Source: Tsuneonella litorea | Lineage (GTDB): Bacteria > Pseudomonadota > Alphaproteobacteria > Sphingomonadales > Sphingomonadaceae | Length of the DNA: 64,000 nt | Assembly: GCF_025154015.1 (NCBI RefSeq) | Contig: NZ_JAOAMV010000003.1 | Coordinates: forward strand, 62,001-126,000 | Direction: 5' to 3' | Shown: positions 12,852 to 20,984 of the stretch, piece by piece | How positions within the stretch are numbered: the first letter of the stretch is position 1 | Layout of the letters: each line of letters begins with the position of its first letter | The notes under the pieces: model-generated | The model's input: only the letters and a program-made list of their open reading frames with translations | What the model was told of the DNA's origin: nothing | The model's database searches: none | Position numbers and translations under genes: made by a program

Positions 12852-14138
12852 ATGGCGGACAAGGCGGCGACGCTCACCTACGACAACAAGAGTATCGAGC
12901 TTCCGGTTCTCGAGGGCAGCGTGGGCCCCGAGGTCATCGATATCCGCAAGCTCTACGGCCAGACCGGGGCCTTCACCTACGATCCGGGCTACAAGTCCAC
13001 CGCCAGCTGCGAGAGCGCGCTGACCTACATCGACGGCGACGAGGGCGTCCTGCTCCATCGCGGCTACCCGATCGGCCAGCTCGCCGAGCATTCGAGCTTC
13101 ATGGAAGTCAGCTACCTGCTGCTCAACGGCGAATTGCCGTCGAAACAGGAACTCGACGACTTCAGCTACACGATCAGCCGCCACACGATGCTGCACGAGC
13201 AGCTGATGACGTTTTACCGCGGCTTCCGCCGCGATGCGCACCCGATGGCGATCATGTGCGGCGTGGTCGGCGCCCTTTCGGCGTTCTACCATGACAGCAC
13301 CGACATCTCCGATCCCGAGCAGCGGAAGATCGCCAGCCACCGCCTGATCGCCAAGATGCCGACGATCGCGGCGATGGCCTACAAGTACGCCGTCGGGCAG
13401 CCGTTCCTCTACCCCGACAACTCGCTCAGCTACACCGGCAACTTCCTGCGCATGACCTTCGGTGTCCCGGCCGAGCCCTACGAGGTGAACCCCGTCGTCG
13501 AAAAGGCGATGGACCGCATCTTCATCCTGCACGCCGATCACGAGCAGAATGCCTCGACCTCCACCGTCCGGCTTGCCGGTTCATCAGGCGCGAACCCGTT
13601 CGCCTGCATCGCTGCGGGCATCGCCTGCCTGTGGGGCCCGGCGCACGGAGGCGCGAACGAAGCGGCGCTCAACATGCTGCGCGAGATCGGCACGCCCGAT
13701 CGCATCCCCCACTACATTGAGCGCGCGAAGGACAAGAACGACCCCTTCCGCCTGATGGGCTTCGGCCACCGCGTGTACAAGAACTACGACCCGCGGGCCA
13801 CGGTGATGCAGAAGACCGTGCGCGAGGTGTTCGAATCGCTCAAGGTCACCGACCCGCTGTTCGAAACCGCCCTGCAGCTCGAGGAGCTCGCGCTCAACGA
13901 CCCCTATTTCATCGAAAAGAAGCTGTTCCCGAACGTGGACTTCTATTCGGGCATCATTCTTTCGGCGATCGGCTTCCCGACGACGATGTTCACCGCGCTG
14001 TTCGCGCTCGCCCGCACGGTCGGCTGGGTCGCCCAGTGGAACGAGATGATTTCCGATCCCGGCCAGGTCATCGGCCGTCCGCGTCAGCTCTATACCGGCC
14101 CGACCGAGCGCGACTACGTGCCGCTCGGTCAGCGATAG
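12852..14138 (+). CDS. gltA: Citrate synthase (type II)
   Basis: A 428-residue enzyme condensing acetyl-CoA and oxaloacetate at the entry of the TCA cycle. Active-site residues are visible: His265 in [10 protein letters not shown], His306 in GFGHRVYKN and Asp363 in NVDFYSG. The N-terminal beta-rich extension typical of hexameric, NADH-sensitive type II enzymes is present. It has a strong GGAG ribosome site and follows gltX closely, so the pair is probably co-transcribed. Confidence 0.97.
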
Positions 14139-14368: not shown

Positions 14369-15739
14369 TCAGTCGGCCCCTGGCAATTCGAGCGTGAAGC
14401 GCGCGCCCTGTCCGGCGTCGCTATCGACCGTCAGGTCCCCGCCCATCGCGCGCGCCAGGCGCCTGGAAATGTAGAGGCCGAGACCCGACCCCCCGTCTCC
14501 GCCCCGACCCAGGCGCTCGAACTTGTCGAACACGCGGTCGATCTTGTCTGCGGGAATGCCCGGCCCGTCGTCGATCACGACGGCCTTGGCGAGACTGCCT
14601 TGCGTACTTGCCTCGATCCGGACGATGGCCCCTTCGGGCGCATAGGAAATGGCGTTCCCGACGAGGTTGAGGAGGATCTGGAGCACGCGGCGAAATTCCC
14701 CGGTCGCGGGCACCACGACGGCATCCCCGGGCGGCTCGAGCCGGGTTCCGCGCTCGCGGGCGCGCACCCCCAGAATGCCCACGGCGCGCCGGGCGACGTC
14801 GGCAAGGTCTATCCGGTCGGGCGCGGTGCGGAAGTCTTCGGCCTCGACCACTTCAAGGTCCGACAGGTCCTCGATCAGCGAGAGCAGGTGCTGTCCCGCC
14901 GCGGCGATGTCGGCAGCATAGTTGCTGTATTCCTCGGGCAGCGGCCCGGCGAGTCGGGAACGGATCGTCTCGGCATTGGCGATGATCCGGGCGATCGGCT
15001 GACGCAGGACCGGCGTCATTTCGCGGCCGAACGACGGCGTGGCCGGCTGCCTCTCCTCGGCTGCCGGAAAAGCCGCCGGGAGCGGCGCGTCTGCGACGAG
15101 AAGCAGTTCGAAACCGGCGCTGCCCGGATCGGGGCGGCCAAGCGGAACGAGCGTTGCCGTCCAGCCCCTCTGCGAGCCGGGCACGACGCAGCGCGCGCCG
15201 TCGACCAGCCGCCAGTGGATCGGTTGGTGGAGCGAAAGGTCGGGCAGGTCGACGAAGTCGGTCCACGGCGTGCCCGGCCTGTTGCGCATCTTGCGCACGA
15301 GCGCGGCGAGGTCGGGTGCCGCGCTGTCTACGGTGAGCACGCCCTGTTCGGGATCGAGGCGGGCGGAAAGCTCGGCCACGGCACGATCTATCGCGATCCG
15401 CAGCGCCTCGGTTTCCTCGTCGGACGGGGTCGCCCGCGGAGTGGTCGACCATGCCCCGATCGAGATCGCGCAACCGCCGCTCCCGCGATCGCCCTCGGGA
15501 TCTATCTCGACCCACGCGCGGACCGTCTCTTCGCCGTCGAGCGCCTCAATCGTCCGCGCTACCTTGAGCCCCAGCCGCCGCGCCTTGCGCACGATCTCGA
15601 GCAGGGCGGGCACGGCGACCGTTCCGGGCAGGTCGCCCCCGCAGCGACGCTGCAGCCCCGCAAGCGGTTCATCCGCCTCGATCAGACGGTCGTCCGCGTC
15701 GGTGCGCGCACGTGCCAGGACGACGCCGGCGCCGGCCAT
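14369..15739 (-). CDS. Histidine-kinase-like protein lacking the phospho-acceptor histidine
   Basis: A 456-residue cytoplasmic protein. The N-terminal half is a sensor-like region without a clear named domain. The C-terminal third is a HATPase_c module: N-box NLVGNAISY (about 358), G1 box DDGPGIP, F-like EKFERLG-type segment (DKFERLG) and G2 box GSGLGLYISRRLA. The helix before it aligns with an H-box, TPVLRQPIARII (about 242-253) against SHELRTPLNAII, but the acceptor His is replaced by Pro. So ATP binding is likely while autophosphorylation in the standard way is not, as in DivL-type pseudokinases. ATG 15739 follows the DUF2336 gene stop by one base, implying tight coupling. Confidence 0.8.
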   Translation of the reverse strand: MAGAGVVLARARTDADDRLIEADEPLAGLQRRCGGDLPGTVAVPALLEIVRKARRLGLKVARTIEALDGEETVRAWVEIDPEGDRGSGGCAISIGAWSTTPRATPSDEETEALRIAIDRAVAELSARLDPEQGVLTVDSAAPDLAALVRKMRNRPGTPWTDFVDLPDLSLHQPIHWRLVDGARCVVPGSQRGWTATLVPLGRPDPGSAGFELLLVADAPLPAAFPAAEERQPATPSFGREMTPVLRQPIARIIANAETIRSRLAGPLPEEYSNYAADIAAAGQHLLSLIEDLSDLEVVEAEDFRTAPDRIDLADVARRAVGILGVRARERGTRLEPPGDAVVVPATGEFRRVLQILLNLVGNAISYAPEGAIVRIEASTQGSLAKAVVIDDGPGIPADKIDRVFDKFERLGRGGDGGSGLGLYISRRLARAMGGDLTVDSDAGQGARFTLELPGAD

Positions 15740-15740
15740 C

Positions 15741-16703
15741 TCAGGCGACCGAGTTCCGCGCCGAGCCGCCAAGCAGCGCCGCCGCACGATCCGCGCGCAA
15801 CTGGTCGAACCCCTCTGGCAGCGCGACGTCGGGGTGGAGGTGCAGGAACTGTTCCTCGACCTCGCGCGGCTTGAGCCCGGCGGCCCGAAGCGATAGGGCA
15901 AGGCGCGCCAGCTGCCGGTCGTTCGTCGAAATCACGGCAAGGTCCCGGTCGTGACGCGCGGCGGCGGCCAATGCGGTCAGAAACAGGGCGACGCCTGCGT
16001 GGCCCACCGAAAGAGCGGCGCGGGCACCCGCGCCCATGCCGGTCACGAGGCGCGAAAGCAGGCCAAGCCGGCTGGCGCTTTCGTCATAGGCTTCTCGCAG
16101 CGCGTCGGTCGCCGCGGCGGCGTCCGGGCCGGTCGAATCGACAAGTCCGCTGGCCCAGATCGCGACGACCTGGTGAAACAGGTCTGCCGGCAGTTCCGCC
16201 AGCGGCAATTCCATCCGCCGCTGGGTTTGCGCAAAGCGCGACTGCGCCGCCAGCGCGGCCATTGCGGTCGCGGCGGTCGGGCCATCGTCAGAAGCGATGA
16301 GCGCCTGAAGCAGCGGCGAAAGAACCGGATCGATCGCGGAACGCTTTTCGAGCCGAGCCGTCAACTGCCACTCGAGCGACAACGCGTGGCAATGTCCGAC
16401 CAGTTTCTCGTCGGTAAGCAGGCGGTTGGTTAGTTGAGCGCAGTCGCGCTCGGCGCGGGCCCTGGGATCGGTCGCACCGGCCGCCTGCGCCTCGACGAGC
16501 AGCACCTGCCGGGCGAGATCGGAGATCATGCCGCGGACCCGGCTGACGATCTCGTCGCTGAACAGCGAATGGTCATGATTGGCGAGCAGGTGGCCGAGCA
16601 CCGGCCCGATCGTGCCGATCACGACGTCTCCCTGCGCGAGTTCGTCGCGCAGCACGGCTTCGACGGGCGCTTCGCTCGATTGCATCATCACCGCTTCGCT
16701 CAT
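15741..16703 (-). CDS. DUF2336 domain-containing protein
   Basis: A 320-residue, helix-rich, largely soluble protein resembling the DUF2336 family of alphaproteobacteria; molecular function unknown. It begins MSEAVMMQSSEAPVEAVLRDEL, alternates Ala/Leu-rich helices, and has no signal peptide. The C-terminal part (HDRDLAVISTNDRQLARLAL) ends with SARNSVA. It is directly coupled to the kinase-like gene (stop and start one base apart), so the two proteins probably act together. A CtrA-like TTAA-N7-TTAG site lies 24-38 nt before its start. DUF2336 assignment is from overall resemblance, not from a motif. Confidence 0.6.
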   Translation of the reverse strand: MSEAVMMQSSEAPVEAVLRDELAQGDVVIGTIGPVLGHLLANHDHSLFSDEIVSRVRGMISDLARQVLLVEAQAAGATDPRARAERDCAQLTNRLLTDEKLVGHCHALSLEWQLTARLEKRSAIDPVLSPLLQALIASDDGPTAATAMAALAAQSRFAQTQRRMELPLAELPADLFHQVVAIWASGLVDSTGPDAAAATDALREAYDESASRLGLLSRLVTGMGAGARAALSVGHAGVALFLTALAAAARHDRDLAVISTNDRQLARLALSLRAAGLKPREVEEQFLHLHPDVALPEGFDQLRADRAAALLGGSARNSVA

Positions 16704-16726
16704 GCACCGGCCATAGCGGCCCGTGG

Positions 16727-16741
16727 TTAAGCCTGCGTTAG
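16727..16741. promoter_or_regulatory. CtrA-like site TTAA-N7-TTAG before the DUF2336/kinase pair
   Basis: TTAA at 16727-16730 and TTAG at 16738-16741 with exactly seven bases between, matching seven of eight positions of the CtrA full site TTAA-N7-TTAA. It overlaps the stop codon of the upstream gene and lies just before the DUF2336 start on the minus strand. Confidence 0.3.
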
Positions 16742-17904
16742 CTTCGCCGCGCCCCGGAAAACAGCCGTCCACCGAGCGCGGCCAGCCCAGTCGCTGCCAT
16801 CGCAGGCACGAATGCCCCGAAAACCGCTGCCACGGCAAGGCCGGCGATGACCAGGATGCGGTCGCCGAGCAGACGGAGAGCGCGCGGTCCGTCGCATTCG
16901 CGCAGGAGTCGCGTCGCCGCGACCAGCACGAGCGCAACGAAGGGCGCGTGCCAATCGGCGAACTCCTGCGGGCTCGCCGCGACTGCGATGAGCGCCAGAT
17001 CGAGTGCGCCGTCTCGCACCTCCGCCATGCGCCCCTTCGCGGCCACCCCCGAACCGGCGCGCGCGAAGCGCCCCATCCGCCCTCCGGTTTCCGCGACGAA
17101 GGCGCCAATGGCGAGCGCGACGAGCCCACCGACCGTGCTGCCGAGATAGCCGGCTGCGCCCCCGGCCAAAGCAAGCGCGATGCCCCCGATCGCCAGCCCC
17201 GGCGCGAGCGCGGGCCTGTTCGCCGCGCGCGTGAGCAGGACCCGCGCAAGTCCATGCGCGAGCGTTTCGCCCGGCCGCTCCACGCCCGGCGCCGGAACGT
17301 GGCGCGCCTGCCAGTTGCGTTCCATCCGCTGCGCCGCGGCGCCATCGCCCAGAAGCGCCCAGCGTCCTTCGTCGAGCCAGTGTTGCGGCACCTCGACGCA
17401 TCGCCCTCCCCTCTGGAGCGCGACCCGCAGCAGTCCGGCGACGGGGTCGGCATCGGGGGGCAGAAACGCCAGCGCCTCGACCGAATCGCCACGCGTGGCG
17501 AGGACCCCGCCCCAGGCGCGCTCGCGGTCTATCCGCTCGAAGCCGCGTTCGACCGCGCCATCGGCCGGCAGAACGGCGATCCCCGCCCGCGCGCCCAGCG
17601 CCTGCGCCAGCCAGTCGCGATCCGGCAACACGCCCGGAGCGAAGACGAAGAGATTGTCGGCGGCGCTGACCAGGCCCGACAGCGTCCGCGAGTGTGCAAT
17701 CGCGCTGAACTTCGCACCGCGCCCCTCGGTTTCGCGCTGAAGTGCCGCAAGCTCGGGGCCAGGCGTCTCGGCGAGGCAGACCACGCGTTCGCAGCCGAGC
17801 GCCAACGCCGCCTGGAGCTGGTGCCAGGCGACGGGCCTGCCGCCGAGCCTCACCGGATCGGCGCCGTCCTGCGTCGTTGCCAAAAGCGCGACCCGCACGC
17901 CCAT
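16738..17904 (-). CDS. Membrane protein: degenerate nucleotidyltransferase + CDP-alcohol-transferase-like
   Basis: A 388-residue protein of unclear function. Residues 1-180 look like a GT-A/nucleotidyltransferase fold (MGVRVALLATT, LGGRPVAWHQL, FVFAPGVLPD), but the usual GxGxR-type signature is not visible. From about 215 on there are four to six membrane helices. The segment ETGGRMGRFARAGSG followed by EVRDGALDLAL resembles the CDP-alcohol phosphotransferase motif DGxxAR...GxxxDxxxD but lacks most of its aspartates. The layout resembles bifunctional inositol-phosphate cytidylyltransferase/CDP-inositol transferases, with both active sites eroded. It lies 34 nt upstream of the DUF2336 gene on the same strand. 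Confidence 0.55.
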   Translation of the reverse strand: MGVRVALLATTQDGADPVRLGGRPVAWHQLQAALALGCERVVCLAETPGPELAALQRETEGRGAKFSAIAHSRTLSGLVSAADNLFVFAPGVLPDRDWLAQALGARAGIAVLPADGAVERGFERIDRERAWGGVLATRGDSVEALAFLPPDADPVAGLLRVALQRGGRCVEVPQHWLDEGRWALLGDGAAAQRMERNWQARHVPAPGVERPGETLAHGLARVLLTRAANRPALAPGLAIGGIALALAGGAAGYLGSTVGGLVALAIGAFVAETGGRMGRFARAGSGVAAKGRMAEVRDGALDLALIAVAASPQEFADWHAPFVALVLVAATRLLRECDGPRALRLLGDRILVIAGLAVAAVFGAFVPAMAATGLAALGGRLFSGARRS

Positions 17905-17980
17905 ACCTCCCTGACCGATCGATCGGCACTGGGTAGATTGCGGGAATCGGGTTGGCTAGAGCCGAGGCTGCGAGCCGGCG

Positions 17981-18283
17981 TCAGGCGCCGACGAAATGGT
18001 CGCGGAATTGCTCGATTTTGCGCACGACGCTGGGATCGCCGGGCGCGCCCTCGATCGCTTCGGCCGCGAGTTCGACAAGTTCGGAGGCGTGGAAGCTGGC
18101 GGCAAGACCCCGCAGGCGCTGCGCCGCGACCGTCCAGTTGCCGTCGCAGCGCGCCCGCTTCAGGTGATCGAGGTGCCTTTCGAGGCTGTCCCTGAACGCG
18201 TTCCGCAACTCCGCAAACAGCGCGGGATCCTCTCCCGCCGCCGCCGCGATCGTCGCGTCAAAGGCTGCCTGCTCGTATGCCAT
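17981..18283 (-). CDS. Hpt-like four-helix protein lacking the phospho-histidine
   Basis: A 100-residue all-helical protein with the look of a histidine phosphotransfer (Hpt) domain: an amphipathic helix at 21-45, then AQRLRGLAASFHA at 54-66, which aligns with the Hpt signature AHxLKGxAxxxGA. The phosphorylated His corresponds to Gln55, so phosphotransfer should be lost. ATG 18283 is favoured over a longer start at 18355 that overlaps the divergent gene. It heads a likely four-gene minus-strand set and is 70 nt from the divergent TipN-like gene, sharing its control region. Confidence 0.65.
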   Translation of the reverse strand: MAYEQAAFDATIAAAAGEDPALFAELRNAFRDSLERHLDHLKRARCDGNWTVAAQRLRGLAASFHASELVELAAEAIEGAPGDPSVVRKIEQFRDHFVGA

Positions 18284-18308
18284 ACCCCGACAAATACGCT
18301 TCCGATGA

Positions 18309-18323
18309 TTAACACTCTGTTGA
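18309..18323. promoter_or_regulatory. CtrA-like site TTAA-N7-TTGA in divergent control region
   Basis: TTAA (18309-18312), seven bases, TTGA (18320-18323): seven of eight positions of the CtrA consensus TTAA-N7-TTAA. It lies between the divergent Hpt-like and TipN-like genes, where a cell-cycle regulator could control both. Confidence 0.4.
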
Positions 18324-18332
18324 ACATGACTG

Positions 18333-18347
18333 GAATCGTGTAGATTC
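18333..18347. promoter_or_regulatory. Two GANTC (CcrM-type) methylation sites before the TipN-like gene
   Basis: GAATC at 18333-18337 and GATTC at 18343-18347, ten bases apart and 7-21 nt before the start codon at 18354. GANTC is the target of the alphaproteobacterial cell-cycle methylase CcrM, and paired promoter sites are typical of genes controlled by GcrA. Confidence 0.4.
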
Positions 18348-18353
18348 CTCGTC

Positions 18354-20984
18354 ATGAGTGGGGGACATCACATTCGGGCCGTCGGGTCCGGGAGCGGCGC
18401 TGATGCGTCTGGCGAAACCGGCGCTGCGGCTGACGAACCGCTGACGCTCGACGCCAGCTGGGTCGAAGACGCCCCGTCGGACGACAACTGGGAAGAAGAA
18501 GCCCCGGCCCGGCGCACCGGGTGGATCGCGCCCGTAGCGGCAATCCTCGCCGCGCTCGGCTGGAGCGCGTTCTTCCTTTACGCCCACTGGTCCGAAATCA
18601 CCGCGGGGGTGACACCCGCCGCCGGTTCGGCGCTCGTCGTATCGTGGGCCGTGCCGGTGCTCCTGATCGTTTCGCTCGTCCTGCTCGCACTGCGCCTCAG
18701 CACCCGGGAAGCGGCGCGGTTTGCTGACGCCGCCGCCGCCCTCAGGGGCGAATCCGTCGCGCTCGAAACGCGCCTTTCGGTCGTCAACCGCGAGCTCAGC
18801 CTCGCGCGCGAGTTCCTGGCCGCGCAAAGCCGGGAGCTCGAATCGCTCGGGCGGATCGCCACGCAGCGCATTTCCGAGCACGCCGACCGCCTGCAGGAAC
18901 TGGTCCGCGACAACGGCGCACAGGTCGATGCCATTGCCGGAGTGAGCCGGGCGGCACTCGAAAACATGGACAAGCTGCGCGACGACCTGCCGGTCGTGGC
19001 CAACGCCGCGCGGGACGTGTCGAACCAGATCGGCGCCGCCGGCAATACCGCGCATGACCAGCTCGAGGGGCTGGTTGCCGGGTTCAACCGGCTCAACGAG
19101 TTCGGCCAGGCGAGCGAACGCCAGGTCGCCTCGCTCCGCGGCAAGGTTGACGACGCGATCGGGGGCTTCGAAGCGCAGGTTCACCAGCTAGACGAGATCG
19201 TCGGCGCGCGCTTTGCCGCCCTGCGCGAACGCAGCGACGCATTGCGCGCCGAACTCGACGGGCGCGAGGTCGAAGCGCTCACCGCGATGCGCCACCGCGC
19301 CGATCGACTTCGCGAAGAGATCGCCGGGGTATCGCAGGCGCTGGAATCCAGCGAAGAAGAACTCCTCCGCTCGCTTCAGGCCCGCGTCAGCGCCGTGCGC
19401 GAAGGTGCCGACACGGTGTCCGAGAGCCTCGCCGGCACAGAACGCGAAGCGATGGCCGCCTGGAATGCGCGTGTCGAAACGCTCAAGACCGATCTCGAGG
19501 CCGCGATCCGGCATGTGGAATCGATCGACAACGCGGCCAAGACGGGCGCCCAGCAGCGCCTCGCGATCATCAGCCAGGAAGCGACGCTGGTCGACGCCAA
19601 GCTGACCGAATCGCACAGCCTGTTCGTCACCGAGATCGAAAAGCGCCGAGCCGAGGCGGCCGCGCTGGCAAAGGAACACGCGGGCGTCGTCGCCGCTCTT
19701 CTTGCAGAGCTCGACACTGGCCTCGCCGAACGGCGGGACGATCATGCGGTTCGCACGCAGGCATTCGTCGAACAGGGCGAGGCGATCGCCGCCCGGCTCG
19801 CGGAATTGTCCCGGGAAATGGCCGCCGCCGCCGAACACGGGCGCGAAGCGGAGAGCGCGCTGGCAGCGGCCATCGACACCCTGGGCGACAAACTCGGCGC
19901 CAGCAGGAAGGCGCTCGGCGATACCGACCGCAAGGTGGCGGACCTGACCGACGCAAGCGTTCGCCTGCTCGAACTCATCCGGGCCAGCGCAGAGCACAGC
20001 CGAACCGACTTGCCCACGGCCTTGTCCGAAACCGAGGAACGGCTTGTCGCGCTGGGCGAGCGGGGCGAGGCGCTCGGCCTGATGCTCACCAGCGCCGGTG
20101 ACAAGAGCCGCGAGGTATCGGACTACGTGATCGCGGCCCAGCGCGACAGCACGTCCGCGATGGAGGCGCTCAAGAGCCTCCAGGGAGAGGTTGACGCCAA
20201 CCATGAGGCAGGCGCGCGCCGCATCGCCGAGCTGCGCGGCCAGCTTGCCGCGCTTGCCCGCGACAGCGAAGCCGCCTCGGCCGACGCCCAGGGGGCGCTG
20301 CGTGACGCGATCGCGGAGCTGGAGGCCGCCGCGCGGTCCGCGGTGACGCTTATCGAGGAAGAAGCGAGCAGCAAGGTCAGCGCGCTTGCCGCGCGAATCG
20401 CGGATGACACGAACGCCGCTCTCGACGCGGCATTGCGCGAGCGGGTCGGTACGGCCATCGCCGAGCTGGAGGACACGGCATCTCACGCGGCCGGGACGGG
20501 TCGGGATGCCGTGCAGCAGCTGCGCGACCAGCTTGCCAAGGTCAACGAACTGACTGCCAACCTGGAAAGCCGGGTCGCGCTGGCGCGCCAGCGGGCCGAA
20601 GAACAGGTCGACGGGGATTTCTCGCGCCGGGTGGCGCTCATCACCGAAAGCCTCAACTCGAACGCGATCGACATTGCCCGCGCGCTGTCCGCCGATGTCA
20701 CCGACACCGCGTGGACCAGCTACCTGCGCGGCGATCGCGGCATCTTTACCCGCCGCGCGGTCCGCCTGCTCGAACCCGCCGAAGCGCGTGACGTCGCCGA
20801 GCTCTACGACAACGACGGCAATTTCCGCGAACATGTCAACCGCTACATCCACGACTTCGAGGGGATGCTTCGCACGATGCTGTCGACCCGCGACGGGCAC
20901 GCCATCGGGGTGACCCTGCTCAGCAGCGACATGGGCAAGCTCTACGTTGCCCTCGCGCAGGCGATCGAGCGCCTGCGCGACTGA
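18354..20984 (+). CDS. Membrane-anchored coiled-coil protein, TipN-like polarity factor candidate
   Basis: An 876-residue protein with an acidic cytoplasmic N-terminus, two membrane helices (about 57-78 and 94-114) and then roughly 670 residues of Ala/Glu/Arg-rich coiled coil. It closes with a compact conserved-looking C-terminal domain (about 785-876) containing WTSYLRGDRGIFTRRAVRLL, EHVNRYIHDFEGML and LLSSDMGKLYVALAQAIERL. Two N-terminal helices, a large coiled coil and nearly the same length match Caulobacter TipN, the new-pole marker that places the flagellum and division site; this is my inference from architecture. No Shine-Dalgarno is seen before ATG 18354, so the transcript might be leaderless. 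Proteins of this kind are often labelled 'ATPase' although no Walker motif is present. Confidence 0.7.
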   Translation: MSGGHHIRAVGSGSGADASGETGAAADEPLTLDASWVEDAPSDDNWEEEAPARRTGWIAPVAAILAALGWSAFFLYAHWSEITAGVTPAAGSALVVSWAVPVLLIVSLVLLALRLSTREAARFADAAAALRGESVALETRLSVVNRELSLAREFLAAQSRELESLGRIATQRISEHADRLQELVRDNGAQVDAIAGVSRAALENMDKLRDDLPVVANAARDVSNQIGAAGNTAHDQLEGLVAGFNRLNEFGQASERQVASLRGKVDDAIGGFEAQVHQLDEIVGARFAALRERSDALRAELDGREVEALTAMRHRADRLREEIAGVSQALESSEEELLRSLQARVSAVREGADTVSESLAGTEREAMAAWNARVETLKTDLEAAIRHVESIDNAAKTGAQQRLAIISQEATLVDAKLTESHSLFVTEIEKRRAEAAALAKEHAGVVAALLAELDTGLAERRDDHAVRTQAFVEQGEAIAARLAELSREMAAAAEHGREAESALAAAIDTLGDKLGASRKALGDTDRKVADLTDASVRLLELIRASAEHSRTDLPTALSETEERLVALGERGEALGLMLTSAGDKSREVSDYVIAAQRDSTSAMEALKSLQGEVDANHEAGARRIAELRGQLAALARDSEAASADAQGALRDAIAELEAAARSAVTLIEEEASSKVSALAARIADDTNAALDAALRERVGTAIAELEDTASHAAGTGRDAVQQLRDQLAKVNELTANLESRVALARQRAEEQVDGDFSRRVALITESLNSNAIDIARALSADVTDTAWTSYLRGDRGIFTRRAVRLLEPAEARDVAELYDNDGNFREHVNRYIHDFEGMLRTMLSTRDGHAIGVTLLSSDMGKLYVALAQAIERLRD

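Follow-up and report, generated by a model that had tools for sequence, protein, structure and literature searches.

A sphingomonad scaffold of the TipN/GPR/RgsE type encoded beside an Hpt-like protein and a kinase-like protein that both lack the phospho-histidine

What can phosphorelay proteins do once the histidines that carry the phosphate are gone? The question is raised by a locus of Tsuneonella litorea (assembly GCF_025154015.1) that lies in a 64,000-nucleotide stretch of contig NZ_JAOAMV010000003.1 (positions 62,001 to 126,000, forward strand), hereafter the window, to which all coordinates refer. At this locus the gene of a candidate polar scaffold diverges from four minus-strand genes, two of which encode an Hpt-like protein and a histidine-kinase-like protein without their phospho-histidines. 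Comparison of the deduced proteins suggests that in these two binding has taken the place of phosphate transfer. All five open reading frames, previously picked out by a reading of the sequence alone (the sequence-only reading), were found in place:

18354-20984, plus strand: membrane-anchored scaffold (TipN/GPR/RgsE-type), 876 residues, assigned by hydropathy and profile comparison
18284-18353: divergent promoter region, 70 bp, common to the Hpt-like and scaffold genes
18309-18323, plus strand: CtrA-box-like site TTAA-N7-TTGA, one mismatch to TTAA-N7-TTAA, the box consensus being the one we take for CtrA
17981-18283, minus strand: Hpt-like protein without phospho-histidine, 100 residues; Gln55 codon at 18119-18121
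16738-17904, minus strand: eroded nucleoside triphosphate (NTP)-transferase/cytidine diphosphate (CDP)-alcohol phosphotransferase-like protein (NTase-like), 388 residues, assigned at family level only
15741-16703, minus strand: DUF2336-like protein, 320 residues, assigned at family level only
14369-15739, minus strand: pseudo-histidine-kinase, 456 residues, with two PAS-like domains, a dimerization and histidine phosphotransfer (DHp) domain carrying Pro243, and an ATP-binding domain

The Hpt-like protein scores 17.8 bits against PF01627, under the cut-off of 24.6, and carries Gln55 at the phospho-site, as had been read from the sequence. Among 112 loci that encode the C-terminal domain of the scaffold, 48 have an Hpt match, and all 48 Hpt genes are divergent from the scaffold gene and upstream of it, an arrangement that is new here; no paper naming an Hpt gene back-to-back with the scaffold was found in the open-access literature. 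The two frames overlap or lie at most 1.2 kb apart, as measured between open frames and not between start codons, and small frames intervene in some loci with gaps of 0.7-1.2 kb. Such an Hpt is found at 28 of 40 loci of the window's family (f1, Sphingomonadaceae with Erythrobacteraceae), at 8 of the 18 loci from other families of Sphingomonadales, four of the 18 being cut on the Hpt side, and at 12 of the 54 from the rest of the class, two of the 54 being cut. Stretches L057, L058, L067, L069, L277 and L292 stop on the upstream side of the scaffold, so that no Hpt could be seen in them. Many stretches extend only about 0.5 kb downstream of it, where an Hpt would be missed, and L253 and L294, of the same genus, share an identical matched Hpt stretch.

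The phospho-histidine is kept in all 20 Hpts outside f1 and lost in 27 of the 28 inside it. The same loss is seen in 67 of 67 Hpts from a set of 80 independent named loci, which, where an organism name is given, are nearly all from Sphingomonadaceae or Erythrobacteraceae; here the site holds Met (29), Leu (19), Gln (9), Glu (6), Ser (2), Asp (1) or Thr (1). A motif, RCD[GA]NW, stands just before the site in 25 of the 28 histidine-less f1 Hpts of alignment A4, one of the 28 being that of the window, and is absent from all nine histidine-bearing ones there, which indicates that a new conserved surface arose with the loss of the histidine; RCDxNW is present in all 67 Hpts of the named loci. The sole f1 Hpt to keep its histidine (L074, genome G015) belongs to the first-branching f1 clade of the scaffold tree (G015, G013 and G027), in which f1 is monophyletic with a support of 0.991 (one FastTree run). 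That clade is without a pseudokinase ortholog: G015 has a core-only match of 153 bits and the other two have none.

The kinase-like protein matches PF02518 (93.2 bits) and PF00512 (31.7 bits), and its H-box position is Pro243, in agreement with the proline noticed earlier. A single match per genome occurs in 123 of 136 f1 genomes, this total being counted on the full genome list, and in none of 61 others (E-value 1e-70). The H-box histidine is absent in 50 of 51 kinases compared, which carry Pro (25), Arg (11), Gly (5), Glu, Gln and Asp (2 each) and Ser, Asn, Lys and His (1 each) at this position, and Pro occupies it in 73 of 73 named loci. The ATP site, on the other hand, is retained, with both N-box asparagines and two G2 glycines in 51 of 51 kinases and intact N and G boxes in the window protein. 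A structure model (pLDDT, the predicted local distance difference test score, 87.9; pTM, the predicted template modelling score, 0.47) contains a DHp helix pair, an ATPase domain and, by the order of strands and helices, two PAS-like domains, for which no Pfam match to a PAS domain was obtained; by fold it matches histidine kinases, of which several include PAS or LOV parts. The sequence-only reading had pointed to DivL as a pseudokinase of the same network as TipN. A special kinship was rejected, as DivL (4q20) ranks 11th in a PDB sequence search and 20th by fold and so does not stand out among the kinases, and the window protein has Pro and not Tyr at the H-box. As a side observation, the kinase homolog L108:8208-9632 (G107) is broken by a TGA stop, through decay or a sequencing error.

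Both genes belong to a block whose order is conserved. On the minus strand, transcription runs through the Hpt-like, NTase-like, DUF2336-like and kinase-like genes with intergenic gaps of only 76, 34 and 1 bp, so that the four are likely an operon. Of 60 Sphingomonadales stretches fetched, L113 and L114 were placeholders; in the remaining 58 loci an order recurs, whole or in part, in much of f1: gltX-gltA converges with kinase-DUF-NTase-Hpt, which diverges from the scaffold, which in turn converges with DUF1467-RNase J. All five genes occur together in 63 of the 80 named loci, 59 in plain order and four with overlapping open frames, so that the minus-strand genes do show conserved synteny, the lack of which would have spoken against a polarity module; the other 17 comprise seven cut by a contig end and ten without a detectable Hpt, one of them also without the DUF gene. 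When the window is set against three congeners, the ratios of non-synonymous to synonymous substitution rates (dN/dS) of the five genes are 0.12-0.34 in 15 comparisons, some with dS above 1 and thus near saturation, and by this measure the five genes are under purifying selection. The conserved order together with these ratios argues that the block is not due to chance. The gltA gene (12852-14138) adjoins the kinase end of the operon; in Caulobacter, according to PMC7083601, the citrate synthase CitA was found to regulate CtrA in work that has a tipN deletion among its strains and section titles, and any link between the two is speculation.

The scaffold itself has hydrophobic stretches at about residues 56-77 and 86-120, which bears out the two N-terminal membrane helices proposed for the 876-residue protein. 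Between residues 121 and 740 the hydrophobic period is 3.6 and there are 38 Pro and Gly residues; the long helical region expected from the sequence is thus present, although a coiled coil is less well supported than a helix. Against Pfam and NCBIfam the protein gives weak sub-cut-off matches only, and none to PF01442. Of 197 Sphingomonadales genomes, 192 encode it, as do 58 of 59 relatives, and its conserved C-terminal domain of about 125 residues (about 752-875) is kept throughout the order, for which no report of this scaffold family was found in the literature searched. G163, a complete f1 genome, matches neither the scaffold nor, at full length, the pseudokinase, possibly a natural double loss.

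A profile of the C-terminal domain matches 155 of 387 alphaproteobacterial genomes. With hhalign it aligns to ten distant homologs with a probability of 99.94 and an E-value of 9.6e-37. Four of the ten are large proteins of 1,608-2,752 residues; all four match PF01442 when scanned and all four have two N-terminal hydrophobic stretches, features by which we assign them the GPR/RgsE architecture, as passages of PMC8262873 and PMC7327166 describe it. The domain also aligns to 15 proteins of family f59 (probability 97.0, E-value 1e-10), which in turn align to the ten distant homologs (98.7, 2.1e-16); a negative control with an unrelated Hpt gave a probability of 1.4. The f59 profile was built from 15 of 30 loci, the rest being cut, broken or represented by another frame; 14 of the 15 proteins show two N-terminal hydrophobic stretches and L341 shows one long one. 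Relatives of an 838-residue f59 protein occur in 38 of 40 f59 genomes, the best frame having 830-1,040 residues in 31 of the 38. Two f59 genomes score 466 and 415 bits against a DivJ model, the highest of nine genomes tested (the others reach at most 253; the cut-off is 1000 and none lies above it), and we tentatively regard the f59 proteins, to which no tool gave a name, as the TipN of Caulobacterales. By these profile comparisons the scaffold is shown to belong to a class-wide alphaproteobacterial family with GPR/RgsE-type proteins among its members; TipN is very probably another. The similarity forecast for the C-terminal domain was found with TipN candidates of a presumably caulobacterial family.

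The 70-bp region between the scaffold and Hpt-like genes contains a site that resembles TTAA-N7-TTAA, presumably the CtrA box. In 61 intergenic stretches of the named loci, the best such site is exact in 9 and differs at a single position in 36, against 0.04 and 1.1 in shuffled stretches, so that 45 of 61 are within one mismatch where about 1.2 would be expected after shuffling. As the named loci are related, this enrichment reflects conservation and not independent events. The form most commonly shared among relatives, strongly conserved in the window and 67 named loci, is GTTAA-N4-GGGTTTA followed by a GTGnTA box. The exact sequence TTATCCACA or its complement, which we take to be DnaA-box-like, is found in 8 of 68 Hpt-scaffold intergenic stretches. 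ChpT is present in the genome itself, and passages of PMC2877005 indicate that Sphingomonadales keep CckA-ChpT-CtrA.

Neither the DUF2336-like nor the NTase-like protein of the window has a Pfam match at an E-value of 1, and the labels given to them from the sequence hold at the level of their families and fail for the window proteins themselves. PF10098 is matched by 7 of 31 members of the DUF2336-like family, the window included (cut-off 34.6 bits), and a PF10098 search of the window's own genome found nothing; a direct DUF2336 call for the window protein was rejected, as Pfam gives none and hhalign of the window with 20 close relatives against true DUF2336 returns a probability of 1.2. In the NTase-like family of 37 members, PF12804 is matched by three and PF01066 by two, and no PF01066 match was obtained for the window protein and 34 of its 36 relatives. 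The basal relatives L073 and L075 match PF01066 and align with the close NTase-like family (probability 99.1, E-value 9.9e-19) over residues 14-265 of the window protein, mainly its NTase-like half. Their Asp-rich motif, which we assume to be that of CDP-alcohol phosphotransferases, is absent by eye in the window protein, which is probably an enzyme that decayed while being kept under selection. An early f1 branch, G025 (L075 with L352), has a true DUF2336 gene (206 bits), a PF01066 match above the cut-off, a histidine-less kinase near the scaffold and no Hpt beside it, an arrangement that may be an intermediate; the H-box residue of this kinase, whose gene lies near the true DUF2336 gene, is Asp by eye.

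Based on these comparisons, we propose that the locus encodes a sphingomonad polar scaffold with an Hpt-like partner and an ATP-bound pseudokinase that signal by binding, which as a whole is the best explanation and, in our judgement, a rather probable one. Binding in place of phosphotransfer fits because both histidines are lost, the ATP site is kept and the genes remain under purifying selection. We infer the polar place of the scaffold, the contact between the parts and the signalling by binding. The scaffold would be anchored in the inner membrane by its two N-terminal helices and extend a helical rod into the cytoplasm, its C-terminal domain binding the partners; the latter role is suggested by the conservation of the domain and by the loss of GPR function upon C-terminal truncation, passages of PMC8262873 stating that the function requires the C terminus. 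The ancestral partner would have been a divergent, histidine-bearing Hpt of the kind seen in 20 of 20 loci outside f1. In Sphingomonadaceae with Erythrobacteraceae, this Hpt would have lost its histidine; in them a histidine-less pseudokinase of PAS type with an ATP site is present. The Hpt-like protein may dock on a surface of the kinase or receiver type, and the ATP-bound pseudokinase may serve as an allosteric switch through which the scaffold learns the state of the cell by binding in place of phosphate transfer. The CtrA-box-like site would tie expression to the cell cycle.

Several observations weigh against this proposal. The strongest against a single unit is that the kinase and NTase-like genes pair apart from the scaffold: in 20 loci chosen because kinase and scaffold are apart or the kinase is most divergent, 16 have the two genes together on a stretch that contains neither scaffold nor Hpt, and in 11 of these gltA stands next to the pair. 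Several genera thus have the kinase gene away from the scaffold gene. No strong pseudokinase match was found in 13 of the 136 f1 genomes, and 12 of 40 f1 loci and 10 of 73 uncut named loci are without an Hpt; the scaffold can hence do without both partners. Outside the order an Hpt stands at only 12 of 54 scaffold loci, the two f59 loci L245 and L246 having none. The pairing apart from the scaffold suits another explanation, that of two separate units, in which the scaffold and the Hpt-like protein make up one, the pseudokinase, the DUF2336-like protein and the eroded CDP-alcohol phosphotransferase-like protein make up the other, which is tied to gltA, and both are neighbours by shared descent of the segment from gltX-gltA to RNase J without working together. 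G027 and G181, which keep the scaffold without a genomic pseudokinase and without an adjacent Hpt, fit it as well. It is less easily reconciled with the presence of all five genes in 63 of 73 uncut named loci, or with the histidine-less Hpts sitting in the pseudokinase-bearing clade while the first f1 clade, without pseudokinase, has a histidine in its only Hpt. We regard two separate units as a possible but doubtful account.

The loss of activity can also be questioned. L099:2898-4313 is the single kinase of the 51 with an H-box histidine (IDHSFKPS), which may be a reversion or a remnant. This histidine, along with the N-box asparagines and G2 glycines of all 51 kinases, would accommodate proteins that are active otherwise, the phosphate being placed on another residue or the kinase using its intact ATP site to phosphorylate a partner in trans. 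The residue that follows the H-box histidine is usually acidic; here it is Ala, Val, Ile, Ser, Gly, Leu or Thr in 51 of 51. The Hpt site, being Met, Leu, Gln, Glu, Ser, Asp, Thr, Trp, Gly or Ala, is explained by no single new acceptor, and we consider such activity very improbable. As to polarity, the scaffold might have no part in it in sphingomonads and be a general coiled-coil protein of the envelope or of chromosome segregation: its function is known only in distant relatives, and passages of PMC2877005 describe DivJ-PleC-DivK of Sphingomonadales as degenerate or lost. The assignment of f59 to a caulobacterial family is itself presumptive, being drawn from DivJ scores below the model cut-off, and the structure model of the C-terminal domain is poor (pLDDT 54.8), for which reason a fold search with it was dropped. 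The order of GPR truncations, in which a cut of 332 C-terminal residues retained more function than one of 221 according to a passage of PMC8262873, implies that the C-terminal domain may not account for everything. The cell-cycle link is also weakened by the site counts. Nine other stretches, L074 and eight from outside f1, were compared with their shuffled versions. The CtrA-like site is clearly better than these in L066 alone, where 2% of shuffles are as good; the share is 9% for L062, 8.5% for L072 and at least 49.5% for the remaining six. Genome-wide, exact TTAA-N7-TTAA occurs at two places against five for the reversed control and, being the rarer, gives no support for a CtrA site. GANTC (CcrM) sites, two of which lie in the intergenic stretch of the window, occur in 13 of 61 named loci against 13.5 expected by shuffling and were dropped. 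Still, the relation of its C-terminal domain to those of GPR/RgsE-type proteins and TipN candidates, the promoter with its CtrA-box-like site conserved in f1, and ChpT in the same genome speak for a polarity role, and we deem the general envelope protein unlikely.

The polar scaffold signalling by binding thus remains our preferred explanation. More tentatively, and with clearly less confidence, we suggest that an alphaproteobacterial polar scaffold of the GPR/RgsE/TipN family is wired to a dedicated back-to-back Hpt, a phosphorelay input to polar growth, which in Sphingomonadaceae was rebuilt as a pure binding relay of histidine-less Hpt, histidine-less ATP-binding kinase and other dead enzymes. 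Seen in several families, the back-to-back Hpt offers itself as a candidate for the input that would tell GPR/RgsE when and where to act. Sphingomonadaceae provide a natural experiment in which this relay lost both histidines yet stayed selected, and they allow a direct look at the roles of such proteins besides phosphotransfer. The domain comparison also joins TipN-like and GPR-like proteins in one family and extends it to Sphingomonadales.

Set beside known systems, the NTase-like protein is related to what we take as its counterpart, a bifunctional NTP-transferase/CDP-alcohol phosphotransferase (PF12804 with PF01066), through L073 and L075, which match PF01066 and align with the family, and differs from it in having neither a PF01066 match nor the Asp-rich motif. 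DivL has a Tyr at the H-box and PAS-like domains; the window kinase shares with it a HisKA-type fold without H-box histidine and the PAS-like domains, and differs by its Pro. TipN of Caulobacter sits at the new pole and septum and contacts Tol-Pal and ParA. It has two transmembrane helices and a coiled coil, and the scaffold is like it in these last features, in size (882 residues for TipN in a passage of PMC13170164) and in a C-terminal domain related to the presumed caulobacterial homologs (E-value 1e-10), a comparison made with f59 proteins of presumed TipN identity. It differs from them by the Hpt, which is missing beside the two f59 loci. GPR is described as similar to TipN in a passage of PMC8546619, and the two are termed analogous in one of PMC13170164. 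RgsE contacts TolQ, and its homologs are reported from Rhizobiales, Emcibacterales and Rhodospirillales under a 50% length filter, as far as passages of PMC7327166 go. The polar growth scaffolds GPR (Agrobacterium) and RgsE (Sinorhizobium) have about 2,100 residues with PF01442 repeats, whereas the window scaffold has 876 and no PF01442, and its Hpt is without the histidine. Compared with homologs of the GPR/RgsE architecture, the scaffold has the same two N-terminal transmembrane helices, the same long helical cytoplasmic part and a homologous C-terminal domain, and the four PF01442-rich homologs L254, L273, L274 and L291 all have a divergent Hpt upstream, as here.

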